Shown here in pieces: positions 38,725-57,344 of a DNA stretch of 64,000 nt. How positions within the stretch are numbered: position 1 is the first letter of the stretch; the number at the start of each line of letters is the position of its first letter. The stretch spans positions 1 to 64,000 of the forward strand of contig CALWHT010000023.1 in assembly GCA_944380515.1 (NCBI GenBank), read 5' to 3'. Position numbers and translations under genes: made by a program. The stretch is from an uncultured Roseburia sp. Lineage in GTDB: Bacteria; Bacillota; Clostridia; Lachnospirales; Lachnospiraceae. Under the pieces are notes generated by a model, which saw only the letters and a program-made list of their open reading frames with translations, made no database searches and was not told the origin of the DNA.

Positions 38725-38756
38725 ATATTCCTCCCGTATCTTGCGCTTCCCTCGTG

Positions 38757-39947: not shown

Positions 39948-39988
39948 AGAATACCTCCTTTTGCTGTTACCGTGCCGCAGTACCACCG

Positions 39989-42900
39989 CTAAAATATCAG
40001 CTGCTGCTGTACGACCTCAATCTGCGATGCTATCATGGTTTCCACATCATCTCCACGCAAATGGTCTGCCTTCAGATACTGCATCCCGCTTCGAAGGCTC
40101 GCCGCGATCAGATTCAGCACATAAATATTGTCAAAACGGCTGTAAATGGACTCCCCTCCAAGTCCGGACAGACAAATCAGCTGCGTATTTGTTTTCTTCG
40201 CCATGTCCATCAGCGGCTTAAGCAGATGTGCCGCGTTGGTCTGTGCAAAAGGATTATCCATTAAAAGCACTTTCCCTTCATTCCTGTCTGCAAAAATATC
40301 CGACTCATCACGTCTCATATAATACAGCAGGCTCGTCAAAATAACAAACGCGGATAAAAATCCCTCACCGCCGGAATTTTTTGCCACCTCCGCCCATGTG
40401 ATGGCATACTCCCTGTATTCCTCAATCTTATACAGCCGTATCTGCACATTTCCAATTCCGACCACCGTATCATATAAGCTTTTCGTGGTAATCCGCATGC
40501 CGAAATATTCTTCCGCATTTTCGTTTCTCTCAAAAATTTCAATCGCCTTCTGTGTCAATTCCTCCAGATAATCTTTCAGGCGCATGCGGTAAATACCCTC
40601 ATTTTCCTCCCAGTCCGGAAGTATCAACTTAAGCATTTTGACCGGCTTTTCACGTATCGTAATTGTGGAGCTGCGGTCAATCTGGCCTAAATTATCATGC
40701 ACCTCGTGCAGATAGTCGAATAAAAGCTCTATCATGTTGTCCCGTTCCTGCCAGATAAAGGAAATATCCACCTCCAATTTTTCCATCAGGGAACGGTAGG
40801 ACTGCAGCGTGGTTTCCAGTTGAGCAAGCACCGGTTCCGCATCAGGCGCAAGCTCCAGCAGAACCTCCAGCGGCTTGCGGTAGAAATCCTCCGAAAAGCT
40901 CTCCACCCGAAGCATCTGGTTGATCTCCTTTGCCAGCTTATCGCCTGCAGCGCGGCGCTCTTCCACACCGATTCTGTAGTCTCGCACCAATCTCCCACAG
41001 AATGCATCCAATCCACTGCGCTCCATCTCCGAGAAGTCCTCCTCAAAGGTTTCCTCTTCCCGCTGTGTCAGCTCGGAAAATTCGGCCAGCGCGGTCAAAA
41101 CTGACGCATACATAGACGCACGTTTTTCCAACTCCTCCGTTTCCCTCTTCTTTTCCTCCAGCATATACTCATACTGCCGCAGCTTTCCTTCAAAATCCTC
41201 CGTAACAATCAGCTCCTGCTGCAGCGGTTCACTCTCACCGCACTCATTTCGCATCTGCTGCATTTTCCATTTCAGCTGCTCGGCCAGACAGGCCAGTTCT
41301 TTATCCTCCCGGTTCCAGAGCGTTTCCTTTTCCTCCTTTTTTTCCAGGAATCCCGCAAGCAGCAGCTCCTGATGCTGCTCCTCGCTGCGGCTGTAAACAG
41401 TGCCAGTCCATGCCTCTTCCGAAAGCTGATACTTATTGCCCAGATGCGCAAGATCAGCACGCGCCCTCTCCAGCCGCTTTCCCGTCGCTGCCATTCTCTC
41501 CTCAAGCTCTCTGCGCTCCGCAGAAAAGCTTTGCGTAATCGCCTGATACCGCGCTTCCGCCTCCGTAAGTTCTTCGGGTTTCATGCAAACGGCTGCCGCT
41601 TCCCCTGACACCGTCTGTTCGTTTTCAAACTCCAGATAGCCGCTCCGCTTTTCCGTCAGCATTTTTTTCCGCTCCAGAAGTCCCAGCTCCTGATTGCGCA
41701 GGGTCTCCAGCCGTTGCTCCAGCTTTTCCTGCTGTTGTCGCCTGAGACGTTGACGCTCCTGAATACGTTCCGCCTCTCTCTTGCAGCGCATAAGCTCCGT
41801 CCGTTGCTCCCCGTACTTTTCATATTGGACGCAGAGAGCCAAAAAGTCCTCCTGTCTGCGCGCCAGATATTCCTGCTCCCGCTCCGCCCCGGCAATCCTG
41901 TCTGAAAGGCGGCTCATCTCTGTCTCAAGCGCGGCCAACTCCTCCGCGAGTCTTTTGCCCTCATGCTCAAGCCCGGACAGTTCCTGCTGCGTACGGGAGA
42001 GCGCTTTTTCATTTTCCTGAAAAACCGCTTCCTCAAGTATCTGGCCGCGGACGGTCTCAAGCCGCGCAAAATACTCATCATACTCCTTTTTCTTCTGCGC
42101 AATGCCATTCTTAAGCCGTTCCATCCGGCGTTCTTTCCCCGCCAGCATCTCCTTAAGCGCTTCCTCGTCCAAAAGGTTCTCATTGAAGACTACGTAGAAA
42201 TGTACGCCCGCCATGGCAACCACCGGAGAATGGCCGGCTTCTGAAGCGTCTGTCAGCTCCTCCCGCAGCAGCAGCGGAATCGGAACAGACGTATATACCT
42301 TCTCCCCGCAGGCAGCCAGCTTCTCCATCTCCGCACGGGATAAAATCAGCGCATACGGCAAAAACGGACAGTTCCTTACAAGCGCCGTATTTTCTGCCTC
42401 GCTGTTTCCATTCTTTTTCAGCCACTCCATACCATAAACATAATGAACGCCCAGACCATCCAAAAGCTCCTGAAACTCCTCCGGAAGTTCCAGAACTTTT
42501 CCCTGTGTCAGTCGGATGTACTCGCCGTGTACCTCGTTGTATTCCTTTTCCAGCGCACTTCTGTCACGGTCTGTTTCCTCCAGCTTCCGCTCAGACGCCC
42601 GCTCTATTTTTTCCCGCTGATACAAATCCGTTTCCGGCAAATCCAGATACCGCAGAATGGTCTTGCGCACCCGGGTCTCTTCTTCCAGCGCTTCCTTTTT
42701 CTTCTGCTGCTCAAGCAGCGCATGCCTGCAATCCGAAAGCCGGACGGCCGTTTCCTCCTGTCCGCGTATCAGCGCCCGCCTCCGTTCTTTGGCGGCCTCC
42801 GTCTCCTTTTTCATCTGCACCAGCACACGCTTCTTCTCTGTACACTCTTTCTCGTAAGCGCTCTTTAAAATCTCCAGACTGCCTGCCTCATATTCCCCGA

Positions 42901-44419
42901 GAATATTGCGGGCGAGCTTCTCATCATATCTTTGGTTAAAATGCGACTCCTGCCTGTCAAAAAAGGAAATTTCCGTTTCCTTTTTCTTTATCTGCTCCCG
43001 AATGCGGATGTAATCCTCCCCGAGCCTGCGCTGCTGTTCCTTTTCCTCCGCCAGCCGCGCCCTCTCCTGTGCGGTATTTTCCCTGTTTTGCAAAAGCCCG
43101 TCTTCCGTTTCCCCAAGCTCCCTCTCATAATGGCTCAAAAGCTTCCCGCCCAACAGCCTGCGCTCCGGCTCGAGATCCTGTTCCCGCTGTTTTGCAACCG
43201 CAAGGCTCTCTCTGATATGCGCAAATTCCCGTTGTTCCTCATCCACAAGCTCCTGCTGCTTTGCACAGGCCAGGAGATGAAGCAGCCTTTCCGTCTCCTG
43301 AAGCTGCCGCATGACCGACTCCCGCTCCATTTCAATCATTGCGCGGTTGCCCTGATGAAGCTTTTCCTCCTCCCAAAGCCCATAAATTTCTGCGGAAAGC
43401 TTCTCATAGACTACCTGCGAAATCCGTTGCTTTAACTCCTGAGTCTCCTCGACTGCGCAAGCCTGCTTTCTGTTGTATTCCTCCTGTAATTCCCCCATTC
43501 TGGCATAAAATGCCGCAATGCGGCTCTCCAATGCCTGTACGTTTTCCTCTTTTTCCCGACGCACCAGCGCAATCTGCTGTATGCCCCCGACCTGCTCTTC
43601 AAACCGGCGGATGGTGTCACGCCGCTGAATCTTGGATTGATTATCCCTGTATTGTCTGACATATTTCCCGACAATATTCTGAAACTCCTTCATACGGTTT
43701 CTCTCTTTATTGAGCTTGCTCTCCACCGCCTCCAGAAACCATTTTTCCGTCAGACCTTTTTCATCCCGGCAATCCGCAAATAAATCCGACAAACCGGATT
43801 CCTTCAAATTAACCTTCTTGATGATCGTCTCCCATTCCCGGTAAAAAATCTGATATTCCTCCAGGCGTTCAAAATACTGCCTTGCCTGGGACGCATTTCC
43901 CATATCATAGCAGTAAAACCGCATGGAACGGTCTTTCCTGTACTGCTCGAACAGCTGTCTGCACGCCCCGAAGCTTTTTAACACAATTTCTTTTTTATTT
44001 TTCTCAACCACAGGCAGATGAAAAATATCCTGCATGCAGCGTTCCCGGTATTCACTGATAAAATTTATCATTTCAAGCTCGTCCGCAGATGCCGCATTTT
44101 CCTCTGATATTTCCTGGCTTTTCCGGACCATCATTCCTGTCAGCACATACCCCGCGCCCCCGTCCAGCTTCCATTCCACCAGAATAAAGGTCGGCTTGTT
44201 TGTCGTAAAATAGCTTTTAAACAGCCGGTCCCTGGTATCCCGGTAGCGCTTATGCACAAACGGTGCTGTAAGCATCTGAACAAGCACGGATTTTCCTCCG
44301 CCGTTGCGCAGGGAAAATAAAGTGCTTTCTCCGTTCAGATGAAACACCTCGTCACTGATGCGTATCGCATTGTGGTTATAATTCAGATTAATCAGACGTA
44401 TCGCATTTATTTTACTCAT
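39989..44419 (-). CDS. jetC: Wadjet SMC-like ATPase JetC
   Basis: JetC is the MukB-like motor of the Wadjet plasmid-defense condensin, which extrudes DNA loops until a circular plasmid is recognised. Walker A is RNGGGKS (GGGKS at 40-44). The ABC signature is NSGGEGF (1348-1354) and Walker B is VLLMDNPF (Asp1388). Between them lie about 1000 residues of coiled coil rich in Glu, Arg and Gln. Length 1476 fits large Wadjet SMC proteins. The start is the ATG at 44419 with GGAGG 5 nt upstream, overlapping the jetB stop by 8 nt. The upstream genes jetD, jetA and jetB complete the system. Identification is from motifs and gene set. Confidence 0.9.
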   Translation of the reverse strand: MSKINAIRLINLNYNHNAIRISDEVFHLNGESTLFSLRNGGGKSVLVQMLTAPFVHKRYRDTRDRLFKSYFTTNKPTFILVEWKLDGGAGYVLTGMMVRKSQEISEENAASADELEMINFISEYRERCMQDIFHLPVVEKNKKEIVLKSFGACRQLFEQYRKDRSMRFYCYDMGNASQARQYFERLEEYQIFYREWETIIKKVNLKESGLSDLFADCRDEKGLTEKWFLEAVESKLNKERNRMKEFQNIVGKYVRQYRDNQSKIQRRDTIRRFEEQVGGIQQIALVRREKEENVQALESRIAAFYARMGELQEEYNRKQACAVEETQELKQRISQVVYEKLSAEIYGLWEEEKLHQGNRAMIEMERESVMRQLQETERLLHLLACAKQQELVDEEQREFAHIRESLAVAKQREQDLEPERRLLGGKLLSHYERELGETEDGLLQNRENTAQERARLAEEKEQQRRLGEDYIRIREQIKKKETEISFFDRQESHFNQRYDEKLARNILGEYEAGSLEILKSAYEKECTEKKRVLVQMKKETEAAKERRRALIRGQEETAVRLSDCRHALLEQQKKKEALEEETRVRKTILRYLDLPETDLYQREKIERASERKLEETDRDRSALEKEYNEVHGEYIRLTQGKVLELPEEFQELLDGLGVHYVYGMEWLKKNGNSEAENTALVRNCPFLPYALILSRAEMEKLAACGEKVYTSVPIPLLLREELTDASEAGHSPVVAMAGVHFYVVFNENLLDEEALKEMLAGKERRMERLKNGIAQKKKEYDEYFARLETVRGQILEEAVFQENEKALSRTQQELSGLEHEGKRLAEELAALETEMSRLSDRIAGAEREQEYLARRQEDFLALCVQYEKYGEQRTELMRCKREAERIQERQRLRRQQQEKLEQRLETLRNQELGLLERKKMLTEKRSGYLEFENEQTVSGEAAAVCMKPEELTEAEARYQAITQSFSAERRELEERMAATGKRLERARADLAHLGNKYQLSEEAWTGTVYSRSEEQHQELLLAGFLEKKEEKETLWNREDKELACLAEQLKWKMQQMRNECGESEPLQQELIVTEDFEGKLRQYEYMLEEKKRETEELEKRASMYASVLTALAEFSELTQREEETFEEDFSEMERSGLDAFCGRLVRDYRIGVEERRAAGDKLAKEINQMLRVESFSEDFYRKPLEVLLELAPDAEPVLAQLETTLQSYRSLMEKLEVDISFIWQERDNMIELLFDYLHEVHDNLGQIDRSSTITIREKPVKMLKLILPDWEENEGIYRMRLKDYLEELTQKAIEIFERNENAEEYFGMRITTKSLYDTVVGIGNVQIRLYKIEEYREYAITWAEVAKNSGGEGFLSAFVILTSLLYYMRRDESDIFADRNEGKVLLMDNPFAQTNAAHLLKPLMDMAKKTNTQLICLSGLGGESIYSRFDNIYVLNLIAASLRSGMQYLKADHLRGDDVETMIASQIEVVQQQLIF

Positions 44420-45125
44420 CGCTGCCTCCAAGCATCCGGCGCACTCTGTGATAGTTGTTTTGGTTCAGCAGATTCCAGTCCATAAAATGATCCAGTTTTT
44501 TTGTGGTTTTAATCATTTCGTCCTCCTCCACATACTCTATCAATCCCTGCTTTTGCAGAAAGCTCAGTATATGATGCAGCAGCCCCTCTTTCGTCGTCTT
44601 TGCCTTCGACCCCCTCTCATCCGAGCGCAACGCCTCGTAAGCCTCAAGCATACCCGAAAACGCGGTGCCCGCCGCCCCGTCCGTGTCCTGGCTCTCCCGC
44701 TGCGCTCCCTCCCGCAGTCGTTCGGTAACGCAATTCTGCAGCTCGCCGACCCTCATATAGTCCCGCGCCTTGCTGGTACTGCCCTGCCCGTCAAAAAATT
44801 CCACCAACAGGGTGAGGATCACAAACTGCGAAAGGTAATAATCCCGGTTGGCTGCACCCGATTTACACAGCTCCGCCTTAAGGCGCGCTTTCGAATAGCC
44901 CAGGAAATCATTTTCCTCCCCCGGAATCAGATAAACGACGCCCGCATAGCGCTCAACCATGCACTGCGCCGCCTCCCCCTGGCTTTTCACAAGATTCTGC
45001 ACCTGTTCATTTTCCGTATAAGCCCGGTACAGCCGCTCCTCATCCTCCTCCGACAGCTCATGATACTCCAGCAGGTAATAGAATATCTCCTGCGCTGTGC
45101 GGATATCTTCCATCTCATACGCCAC
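44412..45125 (-). CDS. jetB: Wadjet subunit JetB
   Basis: This 237-residue, mainly helical, acidic protein sits between JetA and JetC and overlaps jetC by 8 nt. JetB is the KITE-type (MukE-like) winged-helix subunit that bridges the kleisin JetA and the JetC heads. The C-terminal part (KEGLLHHILSFLQKQGLIEY followed by VEEDEMIKTTKKLDHFMDW) looks like a winged-helix wing and extension. The name rests mostly on operon position, size and fold impression; the residues alone are not diagnostic to me. Confidence 0.82.
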   Translation of the reverse strand: MAYEMEDIRTAQEIFYYLLEYHELSEEDEERLYRAYTENEQVQNLVKSQGEAAQCMVERYAGVVYLIPGEENDFLGYSKARLKAELCKSGAANRDYYLSQFVILTLLVEFFDGQGSTSKARDYMRVGELQNCVTERLREGAQRESQDTDGAAGTAFSGMLEAYEALRSDERGSKAKTTKEGLLHHILSFLQKQGLIEYVEEDEMIKTTKKLDHFMDWNLLNQNNYHRVRRMLGGSDE

Positions 45126-45146
45126 TGTACGTCCCTCCGTTTCTCC

Positions 45147-46760
45147 CTATGATTCCGTGAGCGCCCGAATCAGCACATTCGAGCACCGGATGCATTTTTC
45201 GCGCCCCTGTTCATCCCTTACCCCGTCAAACACAACTGTATTTCCGTCCTCGATGCGGTAAATTTCCACTCCTTTAAGCGTTTTTAACTCCTGACGCTTT
45301 TCTGTTAAATCCAGCAGCATTTCGTTGAGCTGGAAGCTGTCCGCGCGCTCCGAGAGAAATTCGCTCCGTTCCTTTTTCAGCGCGTCAATACTGATTTCCC
45401 GGGTTTTGATCAGCTCCACCATAATTTCTTTAAATATTTCGACATTTGGGATGAAAAGCCCACGCTCCTGCTCCGTCATCGCATTTTGCAGGGACAACAG
45501 ACTGATCTCTCCCTCCCGCACCGCCCGCGTCACCAGAAAACCCAGGCTCTCCTCATAACTCCGAAGCCTCTCCGCCAGCTTCCTCTCCTGCTCGCGCTCC
45601 CATTCCTCCCCGTCAAAATCCAAAAGCTCTTCATTTTCCTCTCCTTTGCGCACACGGGCCGGCTGCCAGACCTCCAGCGCTTTGTTGAGATTATAAATTT
45701 TTCCGGGCTCCTGGTTAAATAATGGGCGCAGGAAATAGTCCGTATGCGTCAGTCCCCGCGCATCGGAAAGAAGCTTTTCATACACCTCCGTACGAAAGGA
45801 AAAACGTTTAATCAAAGACATTTGGCTAATCTGCTCCAGTTCCTTTGTATACAGGGCCTTCAAATCAAAATGATGATTCAAAATCTTCTGATGTTCATCA
45901 ATTGTCCGTGTCAGGTAGCTTTCAATCGTCCTGAGGTTTTGAAGCGTTTCCTCCTCCCGCGGGGTCAGATGGCGCACGTTGATATTTTCATTCTCCAATT
46001 CCGCCGCGCGGGCTGCAACCATTTCCCGGTAGCTTTGAAACTTCTTTTTTGTGTCGGCAATGGTTTCTAAGTTTTCCGTTAAAATTTCCTGATAATCACT
46101 CACGGAATAGCTGAGCGCATTTCTCCGTATCCTTCCCATCGCCTCCTGAATTTTCTGGAGCTGGATACGCAGGAGATTAAACACATTTTTAATCTCATCC
46201 ACCGCCTTATCATAGCTCTGCTTCTCCAGATGCATTTTAAAAATCATCTCATGGATGGTCAGCTTCATGTTGTTTTCAATTTCAAGTGTCCCCAATAAAA
46301 GGTTATAGCCGTCATCCGTCAGATAATACGAGGTGCGCCTGACTTCAGAATCCACATATACCACACGGTTTGCCACATAGCTGATATTCATGATTTTATA
46401 TGCATTCTGCTCAAACTCAAAGCCGTCAAAATACATGGCCCGGCCCTCATTGGACAAAATGACATTGACGATAAAATCTCCCAGCAGTTTACTGTCCTCA
46501 TAGGACATCGGCTTGCCCAGATACTGTATATTGAGGTTATCAATAAACGCGCCTATGTCGTCCATCGTACAGATTTCTTCCCGCAGCGACTGCTCCATAA
46601 TGTATAAAAGAACCGCAAACAACAGATTTATCTGCTCGTCCAGCTTTTTAAAGCCGTATTTCTGCCAGGTACCCTTCTGGATGCTGTTAGAAATCAGTAC
46701 ACAGTACAATCCGACATTTTTCATCCGTCTGGGAAATTGTTTTAAAAATTCATACTGCAT
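45147..46760 (-). CDS. jetA: Wadjet subunit JetA (kleisin-like)
   Basis: JetA is the kleisin that connects the JetC heads. This 537-residue protein opens with a helical winged-helix-like region (LDEQINLLFAVLLYIMEQSL) and continues with long helices, including a coiled-coil part (about 170-320). The C-terminal region (KGVEIYRIEDGNTVVFDGVR) is beta-rich. It starts 11 nt inside the end of jetD and ends 21 nt before jetB, so the four genes are translationally linked. The call is by gene order and architecture. Confidence 0.83.
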   Translation of the reverse strand: MQYEFLKQFPRRMKNVGLYCVLISNSIQKGTWQKYGFKKLDEQINLLFAVLLYIMEQSLREEICTMDDIGAFIDNLNIQYLGKPMSYEDSKLLGDFIVNVILSNEGRAMYFDGFEFEQNAYKIMNISYVANRVVYVDSEVRRTSYYLTDDGYNLLLGTLEIENNMKLTIHEMIFKMHLEKQSYDKAVDEIKNVFNLLRIQLQKIQEAMGRIRRNALSYSVSDYQEILTENLETIADTKKKFQSYREMVAARAAELENENINVRHLTPREEETLQNLRTIESYLTRTIDEHQKILNHHFDLKALYTKELEQISQMSLIKRFSFRTEVYEKLLSDARGLTHTDYFLRPLFNQEPGKIYNLNKALEVWQPARVRKGEENEELLDFDGEEWEREQERKLAERLRSYEESLGFLVTRAVREGEISLLSLQNAMTEQERGLFIPNVEIFKEIMVELIKTREISIDALKKERSEFLSERADSFQLNEMLLDLTEKRQELKTLKGVEIYRIEDGNTVVFDGVRDEQGREKCIRCSNVLIRALTES

Positions 46761-47790
46761 CTTCCCTGCCCGCTTCCTCTTCGCCGCGCCTTAAGTCCCG
46801 CTCCGTTAAGCACTCCTGCGGTATATAGCGCCCCGCCTTTAATATATCCTTCATCCGTTTTACACACCCGGCGCAAAAATAAGAATAAAAATGCCCCGAG
46901 AGCTCCTGATTTTGCTTTTCCTTCATTTTCGGGAGACGCAGAAGCCAGGATTGCTCCGTTTCCCCACCCATCTCTTTTTGAAGCATTTCCTCATACGCCT
47001 TTGTGAAAGGGCGGATTTCACAACGCCCGGAAAACAAATCCGCCAGGTTTTCATAAATTCCAATACCCTCATAATCCAAATCTCCAAAATAATAAAGCTT
47101 ATTTTGCGGATGTGTCATGTAAGGCTCCACGCAAATCTCAAAATCCAAAAAAGAGCGGAGAATTCCCTTCCCCGCCCCGTAAATTAAGGTACCGATTTCC
47201 ATTCCAAGAATTGCAGAGCCGCCCGAGAGCAGATGGCGTCTCATGGTGTAAAACGTGTCTTTATTTTCCACGATCAAAAGGTTCTGCGGTGTCGCCCGGC
47301 TGCCGGAATAGTATGCAAGCGGCTCGCTTGTCTCATAATAATTCAGATCAGAGGGTTCTATCCCACACCGCTTTAAAATTGTGCCTCCATGCCCTTTTTT
47401 CAGAAATTTTTCCTGCTTCCAAATCGCGTAGCTCCGCTCGTTCACGGAAACCGGTTCCCGCAGCTCGTCCCCGCGGCCGCGCAGAAACGCATCCAGCATC
47501 CGCACATATTGTCTGTCCTTTTCATATTCGGGCAAATGCCTGCGATAGTAGTCCACGGAAATAGCCGGTGTCAGACGGTAGTCCAATTCTTCTTCCAGCT
47601 CACTGTAATCCTTTTGTTCTTCACGAATCCAATATTCCAGGTAAAGCGCGGGTTTCTTTCCGTTTTTTCCGGATGCCTTCACCGGCATAAGCCGCCCGGC
47701 GTCAAGCTCTGAGCGTATGCGCTCATAAAGCTCACTATAGCTTTCGCCGCGCTGCTGCGCTGCAAGTTCCTCCAATTTCACGCGCTTCAT
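46750..47790 (-). CDS. jetD: Wadjet nuclease JetD (TOPRIM)
   Basis: JetD is the topoisomerase VI-like nuclease that cuts plasmid DNA held by the Wadjet condensin. The TOPRIM motifs are visible: Glu175 in NLLIVENKDTF, and Asp237/Asp239 in YYFGDLDYEGIGIYENL. The N-terminal ~160 residues would carry the winged-helix DNA-binding part. GGGAGG lies 5 nt before the ATG. It is the first gene of the operon here, giving the order D-A-B-C, behind a SigA promoter at 47839-47867. Confidence 0.9.
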   Translation of the reverse strand: MKRVKLEELAAQQRGESYSELYERIRSELDAGRLMPVKASGKNGKKPALYLEYWIREEQKDYSELEEELDYRLTPAISVDYYRRHLPEYEKDRQYVRMLDAFLRGRGDELREPVSVNERSYAIWKQEKFLKKGHGGTILKRCGIEPSDLNYYETSEPLAYYSGSRATPQNLLIVENKDTFYTMRRHLLSGGSAILGMEIGTLIYGAGKGILRSFLDFEICVEPYMTHPQNKLYYFGDLDYEGIGIYENLADLFSGRCEIRPFTKAYEEMLQKEMGGETEQSWLLRLPKMKEKQNQELSGHFYSYFCAGCVKRMKDILKAGRYIPQECLTERDLRRGEEEAGREDAV

Positions 47791-47838
47791 GCATACCTCC
47801 CTGCCGGAATATCTTTTATAAACATTCAGTTAGTTATA

Positions 47839-47867
47839 AGTATATATTCAGAGACAGGAAATGGCAA
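47839..47867 (-). promoter_or_regulatory. SigA promoter of jetDABC
   Basis: On the minus strand TTGCCA (47867-47862) is followed after 17 nt by TATACT (47844-47839), each one mismatch from consensus. It starts about 12 nt after the rdrB stop. No terminator is visible before it, so RADAR transcripts may also read into jetD. Confidence 0.68.
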
Positions 47868-47879
47868 ATGTTTTTTTAT

Positions 47880-50381
47880 TTATTCAGGGAGTCGGTGCAT
47901 AAAGCTCTGCTGGTTTCCATGCTCACGCACATCGTCCAGCCATTGGTACACCATTTGTTTTCGATATCCTTCCCTCTCAAGCGCACAGCTCATCAGCGCG
48001 TATTCATTTTCCAACGAAGTATAAAACACTCCCTTGTCATCTGTATTGACAGAAACATGCAGCTGCGGACATTCCTCCAGCTTCTCTGCATCTACTGTCA
48101 GGCCCAAATTGAACATTCTGGTAATGGGGTGCTCCCCATAGTTTTGCATAGCGCTTATCAGGAGATTTGAACTGGGATTCGCCTCAATACTGATTCCAAG
48201 CGCCGCAACCTGATTTTGCATTGCCCTCTGCAGATTTTTGACCCCCTCAATATATAAATCCGAAACCTGAAATACCATTCTTTGATCCCCTTTGTGCCTG
48301 ATATCCGCTGAAAAATGATAATAATATACCAGCAGAGCTGTTTCTTTTCTGACCCTGATTTCACTCCCGTCTGTCAGCTGCTCATTCGCCCAGTGCTCCC
48401 TGAAGTACCGATATGGATTTTCGTATTTTCCTGTTTGATATAAATCCGGATGGTCTCCGCGCAGCTTCCACGCTTCGTAATAGGTATCTATATCATACCA
48501 GACGCACTCCTTATCCATATACGGACTGTACAGAATCCGAAAATACTTCTCATATTCACTGCGCAGGAACCCCTTTAAATTCTCACTCTCTCTGATGTCG
48601 TATTCGATTAGCTTATGATACATCCACACCACGTTATCCAGATAATCCTGGAGGGGCAGACAAATACTGTTGCCTTTTCTCTCGTACCATTTCTGTACAT
48701 CCAGACCGAGAACCGTCGCGTGCCCCAGCCGGTCTCCATTGCGCATATTGAGAAAAAGGATTGCCTCATCCACAGCCCGCAGGCCGTCCGCAAAATCAAG
48801 CCAGTCCTCACCCACATGGTACGTCATTTTCCACTGCATTACCTCAGCCCACAGCGATTGCTTCACCACATGCTGTGTCAGCCACCGGAAAACGGGACCA
48901 AACACCTCCGGCCTGCAGCCGATTTCATTTGAGCACGCGTCGATGCCAAGAACCCTGGCCGCGCTCTCCGGCTCAAGCTCACGGAATTTTATCAGCTGCC
49001 GTGCCGTCTCCTCCAGTCTCCGGCGAAATGCGGCATGGCGGCATTCCGGCAAAAGCCCGCTCTTTTCCTCCGGCAGCTTATCCTCCTTTTTCGGGAAATG
49101 AAACACATAGTAAAAATTACACGGGCTTTCCCTGGGGAAATAATACTCCCGGATAAAGGCATCGTAACAGCTTATCATTTTCCGATTCTCCAACGCCGTC
49201 GGCGCAGGTATTATCCGCAGCTCCAGTGAACGCATATTGCCCGACTCCAGACTCCCAACGACCGCATGCTGCACCATTCTCCGGGTATCCGGCATGTCTG
49301 ATAAAAAAGCGCTTTTTCTTCTGTTGTAGATACTGAAATTTACAAACCCGATATTTTCATTTACCTGAACCAGCTCCTCACGCAGTCTGATTTGGATCAC
49401 CAGATATGCGTAAAACCAGTTTTTCATAATATCCGGAATGGTTTCCCCTGCCACTTTCCCGCACAGCATATGGTACATAAGCTCACGCTCTCCCCAAAAC
49501 TCCCCCTCTATTTTGTTTGCAGCCTGCTTTGTATTCGCATAATCAGTCAGGTTCAGGATTCTCAATGCCTCAATATATCCCTGTACTTTCTCCTTATAAA
49601 GCCAGACAGGCGCATCCTCCGAGAGCATTTCCCTCACATCATCCTCGCGCGGAGCTCCTTTCCAGTCATTTTCCGCCCCGGACTGCATCTGGTAAATATT
49701 AAGAAACAAATATACCCGTATCAGCGCCGCCTGAAAATGCATCCTTTCCAGGGAATCCTCCTGATATTCCGCAGAATAATGCAGACGCGTTTTCCTCCGC
49801 TTCGCGTCAATTTCGCGCAGCGCCGCGGCATAACGGCTATCCGTTAAATCGTTCATCAATTTCAGCCAGATTAATTTAAAAGCAGGCGCAGAGCCAAACA
49901 GATGAAAATGATTGTCGGATATCCCCTTCTGCATGATACGGTTAAGCTGCAGATTATCGTGCCCGATAACCGTATCCCATGCAAATTCCTGCCAGGCCGG
50001 CTGCCCTTTTTCCGTCCTGTATGCCAAAAACGCACAAATCGATAAATCCTCCCCGATAAAGCCCACAAGCTCTCTCCACTCCAACAATTTTTCGTAACGG
50101 CAGATCGGCTCATTTTCCCTCACCAGCAGATAATCCTTCACCAGCTCCTTGAGCGCCCGGAAAACATTCAGCCCATTTTCCCCGCTGCCTTGCCCCAGGG
50201 AATTTTGAAGATAACGGTAAAGCCCTTTTGTCTCGGATTCTGTCAGATGCCGGAGCGTTCCCAACGCGAGCGCGTCAAATTCCTTTTCTGGAAATCTCCG
50301 ATAGTCAAAATCCCCGCAAAGGATATTATGGGAGGAAACCTTCTGGAAATACATGGAAAGAATAATATTTAGATTATTCAT
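47880..50381 (-). CDS. rdrB: RADAR adenosine deaminase RdrB
   Basis: This is a divergent member of the adenosine deaminase family and the effector half of RADAR. Metal and catalytic motifs appear in the right order: HxH in SDNHFHLFGS (His158, His160), YHVGED (His522, Glu525), RLGHAT (His554), EANPSSN (736-739 PSSN), EHP (751-752) and NTDDKG (Asp781, Asp782). Large insertions between the motifs bring it to 833 residues, far longer than housekeeping deaminases (about 340) but as expected for RdrB. RADAR was first described as editing adenosine to inosine in RNA; later work emphasised conversion of ATP to ITP. The start overlaps the rdrA stop by 4 nt. Confidence 0.9.
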   Translation of the reverse strand: MNNLNIILSMYFQKVSSHNILCGDFDYRRFPEKEFDALALGTLRHLTESETKGLYRYLQNSLGQGSGENGLNVFRALKELVKDYLLVRENEPICRYEKLLEWRELVGFIGEDLSICAFLAYRTEKGQPAWQEFAWDTVIGHDNLQLNRIMQKGISDNHFHLFGSAPAFKLIWLKLMNDLTDSRYAAALREIDAKRRKTRLHYSAEYQEDSLERMHFQAALIRVYLFLNIYQMQSGAENDWKGAPREDDVREMLSEDAPVWLYKEKVQGYIEALRILNLTDYANTKQAANKIEGEFWGERELMYHMLCGKVAGETIPDIMKNWFYAYLVIQIRLREELVQVNENIGFVNFSIYNRRKSAFLSDMPDTRRMVQHAVVGSLESGNMRSLELRIIPAPTALENRKMISCYDAFIREYYFPRESPCNFYYVFHFPKKEDKLPEEKSGLLPECRHAAFRRRLEETARQLIKFRELEPESAARVLGIDACSNEIGCRPEVFGPVFRWLTQHVVKQSLWAEVMQWKMTYHVGEDWLDFADGLRAVDEAILFLNMRNGDRLGHATVLGLDVQKWYERKGNSICLPLQDYLDNVVWMYHKLIEYDIRESENLKGFLRSEYEKYFRILYSPYMDKECVWYDIDTYYEAWKLRGDHPDLYQTGKYENPYRYFREHWANEQLTDGSEIRVRKETALLVYYYHFSADIRHKGDQRMVFQVSDLYIEGVKNLQRAMQNQVAALGISIEANPSSNLLISAMQNYGEHPITRMFNLGLTVDAEKLEECPQLHVSVNTDDKGVFYTSLENEYALMSCALEREGYRKQMVYQWLDDVREHGNQQSFMHRLPE

Positions 50382-53071
50382 GTACCCGCCTTCCTCTCCG
50401 TATCTTCCGGCAATACCTTAAACGATATGGCGCTCTTTAGGGCCGTGACCAGCATAGACGAAATGTTCACCCTGACCTCATCGTCTTTTATTGCACGGAT
50501 CATTTTGATATAGGGACAGTTATCAAAATGTTTCGCATAGCCCGGTGCGTGTTTCTCCTCATCGTCCAGGTCTTTCACCGTATAAAAGTCATCCTCTGCC
50601 TTCAGTTGACTTTCCACTACAGTGTATAAATCCTGAAGGCATACGAGCAGCTCTTCCTCACGGTATTTTTTCTTCGAGGCACTTCTCCTGGTTCTCTTCC
50701 ACACATTATACGCCAAATCCAGATCATAAAACGGAAACGCAACTTCTGGCTCAAGGGAGGCTCCCTTACACTTTCCAAACTCCGATTCCTCCCGCAGAAT
50801 TTCAGACAGAATGTCCTTTAAAATATCTTTCTGGGCAGCCTTCATTGAAAGATGCTCCGCAATTATGTCTGCCAGCCCCGAGGCAATATTGCTTTCCAGC
50901 CTTTCCTGTTCCCTCTGGTAATTTAAGGACTTTGTGACAAATCCCATGACATCCAGCTGCGCTTCCCCCGTCCCGCTGACTTTTATCACATATCTCTCCT
51001 GCACATCAGCAGACTTTTGCGCATTCTTGTCATCGGCTTCGGCTTCTGTCTTTTTCTCATACTGCTGAATAACCGGAGCATATGCAAATTGATAATTGAT
51101 TCCCTGATAGTAATCACCCTCCCGATGAACAAAAAGCATGTCCAGGCACTGCAATACCTCAAGCACATGTTCTTTGTTCATCCACTTGCCCAGTTCAACT
51201 TTCCACTTTTGTTTGTCCCCGGTTCTTCTGGTAAGGTTCTTCTTCCGCAAGTCTTCCAACCCGTCCAATTCAAACACTGTTTCCAGCTTTTCCAGCGATA
51301 CCTCCCTGCTATAGCCAAGGCGTGTCGGACATGGGACATTATTGATTATGATATTGATTTCGGGCAGTGCCTGCCCGCACCATTCATTGGAAAAGGAACC
51401 TCCCAGAAAACCTGCCAGTCTTTTTCTGTACTTTTTCCTCCGTTCTTCATCAGGATTATAGCGCAGATGCAGATACTCCCGGACCATCTCCGAGGTAAAG
51501 GATGCCAGCACACAGGAAATAAACGGCTTGTCATCTAGGTTCTCCCTGCCCCATCGATATATTTTTTCCAGCAAATCCCCATAGGCATATGGCTTCCCAT
51601 CAATATCACCAAATACAATGTTATCCTGGCTTCTGCTCATATTCACAAAATACATGGCACGTCTTTCAAGATCGCGATCCGCCAATTTTTCAAAAGCATC
51701 TCTACGGTCACGCAACAGACTATTCTGTGCTAAGCGAATCGAAATATCTTCATTGAATCTCTGATGATTTTGGTCGTAAGCACGCAAGATTTCCCGATTT
51801 ACTTCATTTTCCTCCGCATTCCCCCTATTGGTCAGCCCTGCATAATCCACGGCAACAAGCGATTCTAAAAACTCATTGTAGGCAACAAGGTCCCGCACCG
51901 TTTCCGTCTCACAAAAATGACGCTTCAGCCCGCACCCGTCATAATAGATATGCATAAGTTCCGCTACTTTGCACATAAGAAACGTCTTTACGGGCATATC
52001 AATCCTTATTTCATTTTTATTTTTATCTTTATCCTTTTTCCTTATAACAATCTCAACCTGACTGCCCAGCTTTTTAATGTCCGGCATATACATTCTCTGG
52101 GAAAAATGAAACAGCTTCGTCATATAATCATTGGCTAAAGCCTTGCAATGCTGGTAAAGCCCGCTCTCCGGCACGTTTGCCAGATACGCCATTTCCCGCA
52201 GGAAATGCTCCTCACAGACCATCCGCATCTGGTTGTAATCCATCGTCAGCAGGATGATAAGCCTGTGATGTGAAAAGTACTTTTGCAGCTGTTCCAACAT
52301 CTCGTATCCATGACGCAGATTTAAATCAAAATCATCAATGGAAATTACAATATATTCATAATCGGCTCTGCTTTTCTGCAAGTGCAGCAAATCATCAATA
52401 AACTCTCCGATATTTTTCCGGACGTCATAACCGCTCGCCAAATGCTTCATCATCCCCGCAACCGACCAATTTCTTTTTTCTTCGTCATTCAAAGTGACAG
52501 AAAAATATCGCTCAAAAATAAGCCTCAGCCGCTCCGCCAGCTCCACTTTCTGCATGTCCGCCGCAAAGCCGCTCTCATTTCTTTCTCCCGCGAACGCACG
52601 GTAGATATTGACAAGAATCAGTTCAAATAAATCCTCCTTCTCTCCCAAAAGCGATGCGTCAATCGGGTCTAAAATGTGAAAATAAAATCTTTTTCCTGCC
52701 AGCGTCTCCCGCTTTCCTGCTTCCAACGTCAGAGCAAGCCATCTCTGTTTTTCTGCATCCAAGCAAAGAGAGCTTAAAATCCGGCAGAATTCCTCCATTG
52801 CCGTCGTCTTACCAGCGCCGCGGCGACCAATGAATGCAAGTATGTTCCTTTTTTCCCTTGGAATGAATCTCTTTTCATTTTCTTTTAAAAGCGCTTCTTC
52901 TTCCAGCGCCGCATCAAACAGCTCACGCAGGCCGCTCAGATAATTATTCTCATAGAAAGGATATTCTATCTCCCTGATTACCTGGAGACCGTCTTCTTTG
53001 CGCTCCTTGTATCTCTCCTCCCAGCCGGTTTTTATAATTTCCAGTTTTTTTGTATTCCCATGTAATTTCAT
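50378..53071 (-). CDS. rdrA: RADAR ATPase RdrA
   Basis: This large 897-residue P-loop ATPase is paired with the deaminase RdrB by a 4-nt overlap. Walker A is GRRGAGKTT (82-90). Walker B is YIVISIDDFDL, near residue 250. STAND/KAP-like spacing and a long alpha-rich C-terminal half follow. RdrA assembles into rings and is thought to sense infection and deliver substrate to the giant RdrB shell. A good ribosome site GAGGAGG precedes the ATG. A strong intrinsic terminator lies between this gene and the TPR gene upstream, with no evident promoter after it, so expression may be attenuated. Confidence 0.88.
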   Translation of the reverse strand: MKLHGNTKKLEIIKTGWEERYKERKEDGLQVIREIEYPFYENNYLSGLRELFDAALEEEALLKENEKRFIPREKRNILAFIGRRGAGKTTAMEEFCRILSSLCLDAEKQRWLALTLEAGKRETLAGKRFYFHILDPIDASLLGEKEDLFELILVNIYRAFAGERNESGFAADMQKVELAERLRLIFERYFSVTLNDEEKRNWSVAGMMKHLASGYDVRKNIGEFIDDLLHLQKSRADYEYIVISIDDFDLNLRHGYEMLEQLQKYFSHHRLIILLTMDYNQMRMVCEEHFLREMAYLANVPESGLYQHCKALANDYMTKLFHFSQRMYMPDIKKLGSQVEIVIRKKDKDKNKNEIRIDMPVKTFLMCKVAELMHIYYDGCGLKRHFCETETVRDLVAYNEFLESLVAVDYAGLTNRGNAEENEVNREILRAYDQNHQRFNEDISIRLAQNSLLRDRRDAFEKLADRDLERRAMYFVNMSRSQDNIVFGDIDGKPYAYGDLLEKIYRWGRENLDDKPFISCVLASFTSEMVREYLHLRYNPDEERRKKYRKRLAGFLGGSFSNEWCGQALPEINIIINNVPCPTRLGYSREVSLEKLETVFELDGLEDLRKKNLTRRTGDKQKWKVELGKWMNKEHVLEVLQCLDMLFVHREGDYYQGINYQFAYAPVIQQYEKKTEAEADDKNAQKSADVQERYVIKVSGTGEAQLDVMGFVTKSLNYQREQERLESNIASGLADIIAEHLSMKAAQKDILKDILSEILREESEFGKCKGASLEPEVAFPFYDLDLAYNVWKRTRRSASKKKYREEELLVCLQDLYTVVESQLKAEDDFYTVKDLDDEEKHAPGYAKHFDNCPYIKMIRAIKDDEVRVNISSMLVTALKSAISFKVLPEDTERKAGT

Positions 53072-53102
53072 TTTTCCCTCCTCATTTGTAGTTTTATTGT
53101 TT

Positions 53103-53153
53103 CAAAAAAATTGCACGTATACTACTTTAAATACTGTAATACCGTGCAATTTT
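53103..53153 (-). terminator. Strong terminator or attenuator immediately upstream of rdrA
   Basis: Directly after the TPR gene stop, an 11-bp perfect stem (53143-53153 with 53107-53117) encloses a second six-pair stem (TATTAC / GTAGTA). A run of seven T follows on the minus strand at 53110-53104. Only about 30 nt remain before the rdrA ATG, including its ribosome site, so no new promoter fits. It may therefore act as a regulated attenuator for rdrAB, or set the ratio to the upstream genes. Confidence 0.85.
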
Positions 53154-54416
53154 CTAAGCCTGTTCCGCCAGTTTCAGATACTCATCTGCCTCTTTGGGCA
53201 TATCAATCTCCCGGTATGCCCTCGCAAGATACTGGTAAGCCTGCCTGCTGCTCATCTTCTTTTCCGCAAGCCCAATCATCTGCTCCGCTTTGTCCCCATA
53301 CATTTCGAAATAAAATCGGGTATACTGATTTTGCGTGCTTTTACCGCCATCTATGCCTTTTCGCAACTCGAGTGCCGCATTTGCGCTTAAAATAGCATTA
53401 TAATAATCCTTCTTTTCCAGATTAATATAGCACTTATGAATATTCACTTTAAACATATATTCCTGTTCCAGTGGATCCAGATAATTGCTCTTTCCCTCTA
53501 AATATCCCAGACACTCATCAAAGCGCGCAAGCGCCTCTATCCACTCCTTTTTCCGGTAAGCGCTTCTTGCCAGCTTATAGGTGTTACGGTACTTTGGCAT
53601 ATAGCCATGTGCTTTCCGATATATCTCATCCGTCTCTTCTTCTAAAAACTCATACTCCTCACAGCGTTTGCCCAACCAATAGTAGACGCTGTACATATAC
53701 TTTTTTCGCCCTTCCTGCTTTAAGGCACGCTGAAACGCATCAATCGCATCCCTGGTATAGGTTTTTGAAATCTCATAAATAAAGCCCAGCAACACCCAGC
53801 CATTGGAAAAATCCGGGAAATCGTCCAGAAAAGCCAACCCCTCGGCCGCCAGTTCGTTTACATAATATACAACCGCTTGTTTGTACAAATACTTCGCCAA
53901 GTTCGCTTTTTGCTTGCAAAACATCCTTGCATACCGCATATGGCAATTATTCTCATAAGCAGGATTTTTCTTTATGATATCCACAAGGTCGTCAGCCGCG
54001 TTCTCAAACCGCTTTCCTGCGTCTTCCAGGACTTCTTTCATAGCCGGTTGATCTGTGATTGCCCTGAAATACTGTAAATTTACTCCTGCCTGCAATAGCC
54101 CGTGCTTTAAAAAGATTTCTTCCAGCTTTTCATAGCATTCTTCCAACGCTGTTTGTGAAATTGCATCCTGCAGCTTCTGATGCAAGATGCCCAATTTCTC
54201 ACGCTGATCTGCCGCTTCCGGCAAATCCTCTGACAGAATCTCATATCTGCCGGTACATTCTGCATCTGTTTCTATTTCTGCCACTTTATCGGAATCTACC
54301 GTTTTATTATATTCATACACATAAACACCAGCCAATCGCAAAAACTCTGCGAAGAGCTGGTAGTCCATCCGTCTGTCATTTTCGTATGATAATTCAACTG
54401 ATGCAAACTTGTTCAT
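53154..54416 (-). CDS. TPR-repeat protein of the RADAR operon, 420 aa
   Basis: Residues ~100-420 consist of helical tetratricopeptide-like repeats, for example WVLLGFIYEISKTYTRDAID followed by AFQRALKQEG, and YYWLGKRCEEYEFL. The first ~85 residues look alpha/beta (ASVELSY, a helix, then AGVYVYEYN), faintly like a TIR-type start, though I see no clear catalytic glutamate. I choose the ATG at 54416 with GGAG 9 nt upstream; a TTG five codons earlier overlaps that site. It lies between the membrane protein gene and rdrA. I know of no TPR protein as a standard RADAR part, so it may be an accessory sensor or a regulator. Function unknown. Confidence 0.7.
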   Translation of the reverse strand: MNKFASVELSYENDRRMDYQLFAEFLRLAGVYVYEYNKTVDSDKVAEIETDAECTGRYEILSEDLPEAADQREKLGILHQKLQDAISQTALEECYEKLEEIFLKHGLLQAGVNLQYFRAITDQPAMKEVLEDAGKRFENAADDLVDIIKKNPAYENNCHMRYARMFCKQKANLAKYLYKQAVVYYVNELAAEGLAFLDDFPDFSNGWVLLGFIYEISKTYTRDAIDAFQRALKQEGRKKYMYSVYYWLGKRCEEYEFLEEETDEIYRKAHGYMPKYRNTYKLARSAYRKKEWIEALARFDECLGYLEGKSNYLDPLEQEYMFKVNIHKCYINLEKKDYYNAILSANAALELRKGIDGGKSTQNQYTRFYFEMYGDKAEQMIGLAEKKMSSRQAYQYLARAYREIDMPKEADEYLKLAEQA

Positions 54417-54532
54417 AGGCACACTCTCCAAGTTCCTGAATGGACTCTCTAGTCTCTATTAGTATATTAAACAACTAATAAAAAATGTTTGTCCACCACG
54501 TCCTGAAATTATTCTTCTCTGTTTCAGAGCTT

Positions 54533-55198
54533 TTATGCAGATTTGCTCATACTTTCTTCGTTTGGCTCCAAGTGCTTCTGTATGAACCAATCAGCCGCAT
54601 ACTCTTCTTTCTTCCAGTAATTTTTCCTCCACCGTCTAAGAAATGCCGCCGCAAGCACTATCCAAAGCACAAAATGTTTGTTGTAGCACACAATACCTGA
54701 CACAACCGTTACAAACGCCATATTCTTACAAATCAAAGCCGCCGAGGCATAGTTATGAATCCTCGAATAGGTCTTGTCCGCCTGAATTTCACTGTAAATA
54801 TATGTAGAATATTTTGCGACCTTTTCCTGCAGTGCGGCTGAATCACCCCCGGTCTCTGCCGTCTGTACTGATGTAAAATCTTTAAAATCAGCTATTCCCG
54901 CATTCCCAAGTGCCAGTGCCAGCCGCTCATAATATAATTTCAACGGATTCCCACATAAAAACCAGCTTGTCCTCTTTATAGATACGCTTAATATGAAATC
55001 TGTGACTTCCGATATTGCGATTCCAAGAACATAACCAAACAATATGATTGCCCCGACAAGGTATCCTGCATACGAGGTGAACAGCTTATTGCCCAGAGCA
55101 ATATTTTCTGTATTGAACAACAAAATGATAAGCATACAACTACCCGGCACCGCATAGCCTAATAAGTCATATAATGTCATCTTTTGCAAAACTTCCAT
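54533..55198 (-). CDS. Four-helix membrane protein of the RADAR operon, 221 aa
   Basis: Two hydrophobic helices near the N-terminus (VPGSCMLIILLFN and YLVGAIILFGYVLGIAI) and two near the C-terminus (MAFVTVVSGIVCYN and FVLWIVLAAAFL) flank a ~85-residue soluble region. A GGGGTGAT ribosome site precedes the ATG. It is the first gene behind the promoter at 55251-55279. RADAR loci often carry a small membrane protein of Csx27-like or SLATT type; this could be an equivalent, but I cannot assign it to either from the residues. Confidence 0.65.
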   Translation of the reverse strand: MEVLQKMTLYDLLGYAVPGSCMLIILLFNTENIALGNKLFTSYAGYLVGAIILFGYVLGIAISEVTDFILSVSIKRTSWFLCGNPLKLYYERLALALGNAGIADFKDFTSVQTAETGGDSAALQEKVAKYSTYIYSEIQADKTYSRIHNYASAALICKNMAFVTVVSGIVCYNKHFVLWIVLAAAFLRRWRKNYWKKEEYAADWFIQKHLEPNEESMSKSA

Positions 55199-55247
55199 TC
55201 AATCACCCCGCTGAAAGCACATCATCCAAACATAAGCCCTGCTTGTC

Positions 55248-55279
55248 CCAATTATACTACATGTGATAAATTGGGGCAA
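55248..55279 (-). promoter_or_regulatory. SigA promoter of the RADAR operon with overlapping inverted repeat
   Basis: On the minus strand TTGCCC (55279-55274) is followed after 17 nt by a perfect TATAAT (55256-55251). An inverted repeat with 7-nt arms CCCAATT / AATTGGG (55269-55275 and 55248-55254) brackets the spacer and overlaps both hexamers, a classical operator geometry. Transcription would start near 55245, about 45 nt before the first gene. Confidence 0.7.
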
Positions 55280-55364
55280 TAACCATTTATTATTTTCATG
55301 AAAGTCTAAAAACTCAAACAATTGTATAAAACTCTCATCTCGCTTTTATTAGATCATTTGCAAT

Positions 55365-56510
55365 TTACAGGTTTTTTAGCCTCTCCTCCGCCGGACCATA
55401 GCCGCCGCATTTTTCATAGTAATATTTCGCCTCGCTTATTTTGCCGAGGCACTCGTATATAACCCCGACATTGTACCAGGCTGCGTAGGAATTAACCCCT
55501 TTGCTCCTGCATGTACGGTGCCGTGCCGCCTTTTGAAATTCCTCCACCGCCTCATCAAAAAGAGCGTTGTTCATGTAAATCAGCCCCATCAAAAACTGAA
55601 AATCAGCGCTTGCCCCAAACTCTGCATATACATTTTTCAAAAAAAGGGCAGCCTCTGCCTGTCCGCTGTTGAGCAGCGCGTAGCCATAGGTCTCGACCAT
55701 GTCGATGACATATTCCAGCCTGGGATTTAAGTCAAAGGACAGCCCTAACGCAAAATAACGGCACGCCTTTCCATAATCTCCCGCCATGTACCAGCCCTTC
55801 CCGAGCTGATATAAAATATACGGTATCTGCGCATTCTTCTGCAGGGGCGAATGCTCCCCACCTTTTTCTTCCAGCATCCTCCAGGCTGCCTTTGCGGCCT
55901 TTTTCCCTCCGGCAGTTTCCAGAACAAGCGCCTCAAGCTCCCGCTCCAGCAGACGGATATTGCGCTCCGCCTTTTTCTTCCGTTCTTCTTCGGGCAAATC
56001 ATAGCCGGTATGTACCAGCGTCACCGGCGTTTGAAACGTCTCGAAATCGCTTCCGTCCAAAGCAGTCACCTGCTCATGGATTCTGCCCTCATAATGAAAG
56101 AGGTCTTTCCGGAAAATACGGTTGAGCCATTCGTCCGTCTCCTGCCTTACACCGTTTCTCTCAAATACATTTTTCCGATACACCCGTCCTACCGAAGCCG
56201 GATGCTGCTTAAGCAAACGTGAAAGTTCCGCAAGCTGTTCTGCGTCAAAAGCCTCCATATATTCATCCGCGTCAACCACCATGACAACATCGTTGGAAGC
56301 TTTCGAAACGGCAAAGTTTTTCGCCGCCGCAAAATCGTCACACCACACAAAATCATAGATATTTCTGGTGTAACGCGACGCAATCTCCTTTGTAGCGTCT
56401 GCAGAACCGGTATCCGCGACGATGATTTCAAATCCAAGCGGCTGTAAGGCTTCCAGACAGCGGGCAATATTTTTTTCTTCATTCTTTGTTATGATACAGA
56501 CTGACAGCAT
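55365..56510 (-). CDS. GT2 glycosyltransferase with C-terminal TPR repeats, 381 aa
   Basis: The N-terminal ~200 residues are a GT-A domain of the SunS-like group: LSVCIITKNEEKNIARCLEA at the start, the acidic motif VVDADEYME (about 100-108), and the acceptor-loop region RIHEQV. The C-terminal half holds TPR-like repeats (YILYQLGKGWYMAGDYGKAC, FLMGLIYMNNALFDEA, YNVGVIYECLGKISEAKYYY). GT2-TPR proteins commonly transfer sugars to proteins or peptides, including flagellin in clostridia. It follows the MntA/HepT pair by 54 nt and precedes the RADAR promoter; no strong terminator is visible between. Confidence 0.82.
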   Translation of the reverse strand: MLSVCIITKNEEKNIARCLEALQPLGFEIIVADTGSADATKEIASRYTRNIYDFVWCDDFAAAKNFAVSKASNDVVMVVDADEYMEAFDAEQLAELSRLLKQHPASVGRVYRKNVFERNGVRQETDEWLNRIFRKDLFHYEGRIHEQVTALDGSDFETFQTPVTLVHTGYDLPEEERKKKAERNIRLLERELEALVLETAGGKKAAKAAWRMLEEKGGEHSPLQKNAQIPYILYQLGKGWYMAGDYGKACRYFALGLSFDLNPRLEYVIDMVETYGYALLNSGQAEAALFLKNVYAEFGASADFQFLMGLIYMNNALFDEAVEEFQKAARHRTCRSKGVNSYAAWYNVGVIYECLGKISEAKYYYEKCGGYGPAEERLKNL

Positions 56511-56564
56511 GTGTTCTTTTTATCCTTTCAATAACAATAACCGACAGATGCTTATAAGAACAGC

Positions 56565-57222: not shown

Positions 57223-57245
57223 GTTACTACTCCGCTTCTCCTCCC

Positions 57246-57344
57246 TCAAACACGCGGTTTTAAAGACTGCCCACTATCTCTCCGTTCTTTTTGTCCGCCC
57301 TGAACGGCAGCAGCACTGCTTCTACCATTAGCGTCAAATGACAT
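57246..57344 (-). CDS. Possible 32-aa ORF upstream of mntA
   Basis: An ATG at 57344 opens 32 codons encoding a hydrophilic peptide (MSFDANGRSSAAAVQGGQKE, then a basic end) that stops at 57246, inside the 162-nt gap between the methyltransferase and mntA genes. A weak AAGG lies upstream. I do not recognise it; it may be a remnant or chance. Nothing else is evident in the gap apart from a poor TTGACG-like -35 without a good -10. Confidence 0.15.
   Translation of the reverse strand: MSFDANGRSSAAAVQGGQKERRDSGQSLKPRV

Follow-up and report, generated by a model that had tools for sequence, protein, structure and literature searches.

We analysed 64,000 nucleotides from an uncultured Roseburia sp. 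(contig CALWHT010000023.1), here called the window, in which two adjacent open reading frames (ORFs) had been proposed as a RADAR defense pair, an ATPase (RdrA) and a giant adenosine deaminase (RdrB). A further gene, encoding a TPR-repeat protein, lies directly upstream of rdrA in the window and in related loci. The three genes are as follows.

53154..54431, minus strand: gene for a TPR-repeat protein, 425 amino acids from a TTG start (in-frame ATG five codons later); conserved third RADAR gene
50378..53071, minus strand: rdrA, AAA+ ATPase, 897 amino acids; Walker A 82-89 GRRGAGKT, Walker B D246/D247, sensor-1 D278
47880..50381, minus strand: rdrB, RADAR-type adenosine deaminase, 833 amino acids, recognized with PADLOC, NCBIfam, and PDB; residues H158, H160, H522, E525, H554, D781, D782

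The ORF coordinates of the original prediction were exact, both rdrA and rdrB start with ATG, and the two share four nucleotides (50378-50381) on the same strand. The deaminase motifs occur in the order that had been claimed (HxH at 158, HVGE at 522, RLGH at 551-554, NPSSN at 735-739, HP at 751, and NTDD at 779). The protein is indeed more than twice the normal length, with 833 amino acids compared to the 323-364 positions of ordinary adenosine deaminase models.

Identity of the RdrA and RdrB proteins

A profile search had been suggested as a check on the pair. When run, it matched both proteins to the PADLOC RdrA and RdrB models (2.8e-12 for RdrA and E=1.3e-39 for RdrB) and, below the curated cut-offs, to the corresponding NCBIfam models. 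Searched alone against PDB, the window RdrB matched the solved RdrB at 8.7e-28, and the window RdrA matched E. coli RdrA at 5.8e-5. With a profile of 17 RdrBs, the best match was the solved E. coli RdrB (6.2e-51, 177 bits), followed by ordinary adenosine deaminases from 1.7e-6 (30 bits); a profile of 48 RdrAs returned E. coli RdrA at 4.7e-29 and 5.1e-29, with the next match at 0.098. Thus, the best profile matches of both proteins are the solved E. coli RdrA and RdrB, rather than a housekeeping purine enzyme for the deaminase or an unrelated family for the ATPase.

The catalytic residues are in register as well. Window RdrB H522/E525/H554 align on E. coli RdrB H498/E501/H530, where PMC9994260 names E501 and H530, and H498 was counted from the alignment. 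In RdrA, G87-K88-T89 falls on E. coli G81-K82-T83, D246/D247 on D221/D222, and D278 on the sensor-1 residue D253, with the E. coli residue numbers and roles taken from PMC9994260; the alignment does not cover sensor 2 (E. coli R377). The window locus therefore has in common with the RADARs of E. coli and C. rodentium (RdrA structures 8fnt and 8hr7, RdrB structures 8fnw and 8fnv) the tandem rdrA-rdrB arrangement, the Walker A, Walker B, and sensor-1 residues, and the RdrB catalytic residues, but it differs from them in its low identity, in its extra TPR gene, and at the RdrB interface discussed below.

An alignment scan of genome_contigs (84,980 species genomes) found 310 RdrB relatives among 382 candidate stretches; it took the place of a single-protein scan of the same collection, which found no relatives. 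By their record titles, the best 80 of these relatives include Lachnospiraceae, other Clostridia, Bacteroidota, and a Fusobacteriaceae. Because rdrA-rdrB recurs in many genomes, a chance origin of the pair is ruled out. The RdrB tree holds 97 of 108 loci (the window and L041-L147), with ten loci of identical RdrB and L134 (<700 amino acids) dropped. The trees were quick ones in which long branches were flagged, and their deep forks are only partly resolved.

Among the relatives, RdrA residues G82, R84, G85, G87, K88, D246, D247, and D249 are invariant in all 48 aligned RdrAs. The Walker A form G-x-R/K-G-x-G-K-S/T is present in 88 of 89 long RdrAs, the exception being L066 (ARRGEGKT). A stricter pattern of Walker A plus DDxD is passed by 69 of the 89; 19 of the 20 that fail keep a G-x-R-G-x-G-K-S/T Walker A, and the last is L066. 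For RdrB, a strict five-motif pattern is complete in 88 of the 97 tree proteins. The L064-L066 RdrBs miss only the PSSN pattern, and two of them score above the NCBIfam cut-off; RMGH replaces RLGH in L078, L084, and L103; L109 is a shorter copy (751 amino acids) whose HxH lies beyond the range searched; L132 is without [NST]DD; and L056 is considered below. The spacing from HxH to HxGE is 364 residues in the window, compared to 355 and 348 in the Aliivibrio and Salmonella RdrBs, both above the NCBIfam cut-off, and that from HxGE to RxGH is 29 in all three. The window RdrB is thus spaced like RdrBs that pass the cut-off, and length and motif spacing are what support large insertions in its deaminase core.

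We conclude from these alignments that the window pair almost certainly belongs to RADAR and that, judged by its sequence, it represents a divergent branch missed by curated naming. Of ten further RdrBs scored with the NCBIfam model, two pass its cut-off of 800 (Aliivibrio 969.6 and Salmonella 900.6) and the other eight score 161-217, indicating that the cut-off marks one branch and that the window belongs to a broad set of RdrBs lying beyond the curated name. Because this model passes just two of ten RdrBs while 310 stretches encode relatives of the window RdrB, RADAR is probably under-counted in Clostridia and Bacteroidota. The original prediction had described RADAR as mainly proteobacterial, which is too narrow: the system is reported from 75 genera in 7 phyla (PMC9994260).

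RdrB matches were found in 5 of 62 same-genus genomes and in 18 of 397 family genomes, the window's own genome included in both counts; in three of the 18, the match was weak and confined to a short stretch (E 7.5e-5 to 9.1e-4), and these were left out. Seven plasmid records matched RdrB, of which six were used (L062-L067), and a search of 50,697 phage records gave no match. Three relatives occur in viral_contigs; only L223 also has an rdrA match, and none of the three shows a TPR-family match on the stretches examined. Two RADARs per genome were seen in G237, G405, and G424.

The TPR gene upstream of rdrA

A TPR-family gene lies beside rdrA in 39 of the 97 tree loci and is absent from 37; the other 21 could not be judged, their rdrA being absent, short, or broken or preceded by less than 1.5 kb of sequence. 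On the RdrB tree, a single part of 46 rows has 39 loci with the gene, 1 without, and 6 unjudged; the remaining 51 rows comprise 36 loci that lack it and 15 unjudged. Thus, among the loci that could be judged, this part of the tree has the gene immediately 5' of rdrA in 39 of 40, compared to 0 of 36 in the rest of the tree. The distance from the TPR stop to the rdrA start is -88 to 172 nucleotides in 39 of 39 loci. Presence and absence of the gene require 2 changes on the RdrB tree and 2 on a 76-row RdrA tree, unjudged rows excluded. One gain plus one loss, in L137, is the simplest history suggested by these trees, although the partly resolved deep forks mean that it is not the only one possible.

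These counts were obtained with a pre-iteration profile together with gene position, and by an independent, profile-free clustering of same-strand ORFs of at least 120 amino acids located no more than 2.5 kb upstream of rdrA. By this clustering, the TPR family is the largest, with 39 loci, and the second largest has 5. An iterated TPR profile was dropped after it drifted into generic TPR proteins, including the window glycosyltransferase at 55365-56510 (1.1e-34).

With E values up to 1 allowed, TPR_2 repeats were detected in 28 of 36 family members, the best at 6.4e-12. The match of the window protein is weak (best 0.0023), and against PDB the family profile matched designed and natural TPR proteins. 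The window protein has no NCBIfam match, and PADLOC models matched neither it nor four relatives at E up to 1. A search of the RADAR literature, exclusive of the founding paper, turned up no mention of a TPR partner. A profile of the N-terminal domain, run over 394 family genomes, gave matches in 8, every one of them to the TPR gene within a RADAR locus. The gene is genetically linked to rdrAB and absent elsewhere within the genomes searched. From this pattern of inheritance, we consider it very probable that the TPR protein is functionally part of RADAR. L077 has two TPR-family genes, the usual one upstream and a second (8275-9516, 413 amino acids, 1.5e-46) on the downstream side of rdrB, and a single contig carries two RADARs of the TPR type, L102 and L116, separated by about 33 kb. 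A second RdrB group (L057-L061 and L063) has a longer RdrA, of 942-1130 amino acids, and no TPR gene.

Several observations weigh against a RADAR with a third conserved subunit at this locus. First, the window proteins do not reach the NCBIfam equivalog cut-offs: RdrB scores 200.3 bits against NF041744 (6.2e-59; cut-off 800) and RdrA 72.6 bits against NF041743 (2.4e-20; cut-off 600), so that the names RdrA and RdrB rest on homology. Low identity alone is no objection, since tested RADARs share only 22-28% identity in their conserved parts (PMC9994260). Second, E. coli RADAR requires the three-fold interface glutamates E595-E597 of RdrB (PMC9994260), and these align to D, K, and E in the window, within a stretch of low identity; thus, an RdrB shell is putative here. 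Third, RADAR has been presented as a two-protein system (PMC9994260), and the lack of the TPR gene in all 36 determinable loci outside its part of the tree means that it does not belong to a universal RADAR core. Even within that part, L137, on a long branch, is without it.

The same can be said of sampling and of one relative. The locus set consists of the best 80 of the 310 relatives plus 27 others and is not a random sample. Of the eight N-terminal-domain matches, six are rows of the profile itself (the window, or identical to L068, L076, L099, L104, or L124), and per genome at most 11 candidates from a first look were scored; the informative part of that search is that, among the candidates scored, there were no matches away from RADAR. 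Finally, the RdrB of L056 (8271-10754), which adjoins a TPR gene, is without the stretch from RLGH through PSSN, including the final catalytic His, and because of this loss its deaminase is probably broken or inactive. The genome of L056 (G424) has a second RADAR, L061.

Possible roles of the TPR protein

Taking these points into account, the locus is likely to be an anti-phage RADAR operon from a divergent branch in which a further conserved subunit accompanies RdrA and RdrB. A three-component RADAR of this kind would be new, and the part played in it by the TPR protein is one that we infer. The proposal that the pair is RADAR stood, but the pair by itself was an incomplete reading, as the operon includes, besides rdrAB, the conserved TPR gene along with a Csx27-like one, and the surrounding island contains a type III Wadjet.

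Protection against phage has been reported for the RADARs of E. coli, C. rodentium, and S. suis, and the E. coli system forms inosine triphosphate (ITP) and dITP and a giant complex (PMC9994260). In the window, the Csx27-like protein, the TPR protein, RdrA, and RdrB would probably be transcribed in that order, followed by the type III Wadjet. Homology and the kept catalytic residues suggest that the RdrA AAA+ ring would dock on the RdrB deaminase shell, that upon phage infection the assembly would convert ATP and dATP to ITP and dITP, and that the spoiled nucleotide pool would then limit phage replication. A comparable reaction is known from Cad1, a CARF-fused adenosine deaminase of type III CRISPR that makes ITP from ATP (PMC12669630); unlike Cad1, the window RdrB has no CARF_ADA match at E up to 0.001. 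One relative, L062, has a weak CARF_ADA match (3.6e-6).

In this branch, the TPR protein is a fixed partner that may bind either a phage product or the helical C-terminal domain of RdrA, and its binding would license the activity or the docking of the RdrA ring. TPR arms typically bind proteins. In addition, the activator of RADAR is named among the limitations of the E. coli work by its own authors (PMC9994260), and on these two grounds a sensor or adaptor is the likeliest role, to which we give about an even chance. Because the protein is kept next to rdrA across deep divergence, it provides a direct genetic handle on RADAR activation.

A more specific version is that the TPR protein is the RADAR trigger, a receptor subunit in which a degenerate TIR-like (Rossmann-type) N-terminal domain is joined to a TPR sensor arm that senses a phage product and switches on RdrA-RdrB. 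If so, RADAR would exist in a split-receptor form. We offer this tentatively and regard it as somewhat unlikely. In the first 76-151 residues of the TPR proteins, an invariant Gly is surrounded by a strand-helix-strand pattern. In hhalign comparisons, this domain scored 18.6-18.7 against 24 TIR domains (P 0.008-0.012, probability 4-5%), compared to 14.7-16.6 against receiver domains and 8.5-10.2 in controls with one side reversed. However, TIR against receiver domains, two different families, gave 21.9, so the similarity of the N-terminus to TIR is not significant. When one N-terminal domain was searched against PDB, no match was better than 0.049, and TIR_2 has no match in the genome of the window at E up to 0.01. 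The TIR likeness is a lead only, which a generic Rossmann-like pattern explains equally well. By eye, one family member resembles the start of a TIR domain.

The main rival to a sensor or adaptor is a brake. Here the TPR protein, encoded first like an antitoxin, would bind RdrA or RdrB in uninfected cells, keeping the deaminase off ITP-making, and would be removed or titrated on infection. Overexpression of RdrB without infection is toxic (PMC9994260), so a brake would be useful, and the constant place of the TPR gene ahead of rdrA is consistent with such a role. However, the determinable loci outside the TPR part of the tree all manage without the gene, which argues that RADAR can in general work with no dedicated brake, and we consider this role unlikely.

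It is also conceivable that the window holds a plain two-gene RADAR and that the TPR gene beside it is inherited along with it but does something else. Proteins with TPR repeats are widespread and varied, and L137 does without the gene. Furthermore, RdrA is not clearly shortened where the gene is present (median 890 amino acids, n=39, compared to 911, n=37, without it), so no domain has obviously been handed over; this also speaks against the idea that the sensor domain proposed for RdrA itself has simply moved to the TPR protein. Nevertheless, the position of the gene is fixed although the identity of RdrA in TPR-gene loci to the window RdrA falls to 14%, its gains and losses are few on both the RdrB and the RdrA tree, and no match occurred away from RADAR among the candidates scored in the 394 genomes. 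A mere neighbour is, on this evidence, improbable.

We think it very unlikely that the deaminase acts mainly on RNA rather than on mononucleotides. A-to-I RNA editing was claimed by the first report, for C. rodentium RADAR (as told in PMC9994260 and PMC7699616), but conversion of ATP to ITP was later found with >99% of adenosines unedited (PMC9994260), and the mapped active-site residues of the window RdrB are the same as those of E. coli RdrB. Least probable is a decayed or repurposed locus with no phage defence left, a reading to which the replaced interface glutamates and the damaged RdrB of L056 would lend themselves, since all eight island ORFs are open, both window enzymes keep their catalytic residues, and the absence of the cassette from the nearest relative means that it was recently gained or kept.

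The Csx27-like gene, Wadjet genes and insertion site

The three genes belong to an island with the following further features.

39955..55375, minus strand: island of 15,421 bp with eight genes, between two glycosyltransferase genes, delimited by same-genus site comparison
55251..55279, minus strand: promoter-like site TTGCCC-17-TATAAT, candidate operon start, 53 bp before the Csx27-like gene; consensus 10/12
54533..55198, minus strand: gene for a Csx27-like small membrane protein, 221 amino acids, probable RADAR accessory (PADLOC Csx27)
46750..47790, minus strand: jetD of type III Wadjet, 346 amino acids, 89 bp downstream of rdrB (PADLOC JetD3, 4.2e-120)
45147..46760, minus strand: jetA of type III Wadjet, 537 amino acids (PADLOC JetA3, 2.5e-260)
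44412..45125, minus strand: jetB of type III Wadjet, 237 amino acids (PADLOC JetB3, 1.4e-125; Pfam DUF6063)
39989..44431, minus strand: jetC of type III Wadjet, 1480 amino acids (PADLOC JetC3, E=0, 1950.7 bits)

All eight genes (Csx27-like, TPR, rdrA, rdrB, and jetDABC) are open and on one strand. The region has 34 promoter-like sites compared to 19.8 (standard deviation 4.4) in shuffles, so any single site, including the one listed, is weak evidence for a promoter. No Rfam match at gathering score was found in 39800-55500.

The window Csx27-like protein matches PADLOC Csx27 at 0.001, and six homologues match it at 2.3e-9 (L045, 16175-16882) to 9.8e-4 (L047). Such a gene is present in 10 distinct loci, all 10 of which also have the TPR gene, and we regard its product as a probable, optional membrane accessory of RADAR. 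It lies upstream of the TPR gene in the window, L045, and L046, and downstream of rdrB in L047, L071, L074, L075, L081, L082, and L126. A Csx27-associated RADAR, rdrABC, is a described subtype (PMC7699616; PMC11676413); the window likewise has a Csx27-like membrane gene in its operon but adds the TPR gene. A SLATT-associated RADAR has been written rdrABCD (PMC7699616). With the letters rdrC and rdrD already in use, we gave the TPR gene none. Three relatives (L099, L101, and L124) have a SLATT/DUF4231-like gene after rdrB, whereas the window shows none. These genes (L099 11110-11745, L101 11153-11779, and L124 10969-11553) belong to a 9-locus cluster of small genes after rdrB and weakly match DUF4231; one of them also matches SLATT_1, and the member from L079 has no Pfam match.

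The four adjacent jet genes form a complete JetABCD set, each best matching the type III model, and constitute a system separate from RADAR. A conserved RADAR-Wadjet module was considered and rejected: on the locus stretches examined, jet homologues occur in 0 of 107 related loci, and the Wadjet genes are thus a peculiarity of the window island.

The original prediction placed the pair next to core genes, but more exactly it lies within the inserted island. The flanks include glycosyltransferases and a FliD-like gene. In the nearest same-genus genome, G041, the cassette is absent at a clean junction: positions 1-1961 of its locus (L216) correspond to window 38006-39954 (95%) and continue directly into 1962-3126, corresponding to window 55376-56537 (91%). 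In two further same-genus genomes, the same flanks lie within 54 bp (L219) and 517 bp (L218) of each other, and three others have different DNA at the site. The family searches made found no integrase or transposase among the eight genes, and the longest exact run shared by the island ends is 10 nucleotides, not a convincing repeat.

At the corresponding place in another same-genus genome, G023 (L221, 4568-8927), there are two unrelated ORFs of 619 and 730 amino acids, the first weakly ZorA-like (6.8e-4); the site may be an insertion hot spot. Just outside the island, window 56565-57249 encodes a nucleotidyltransferase (NTP_transf_2) and an NTase substrate-binding-like protein, a pair that we take to be of the MNT-HEPN kind.

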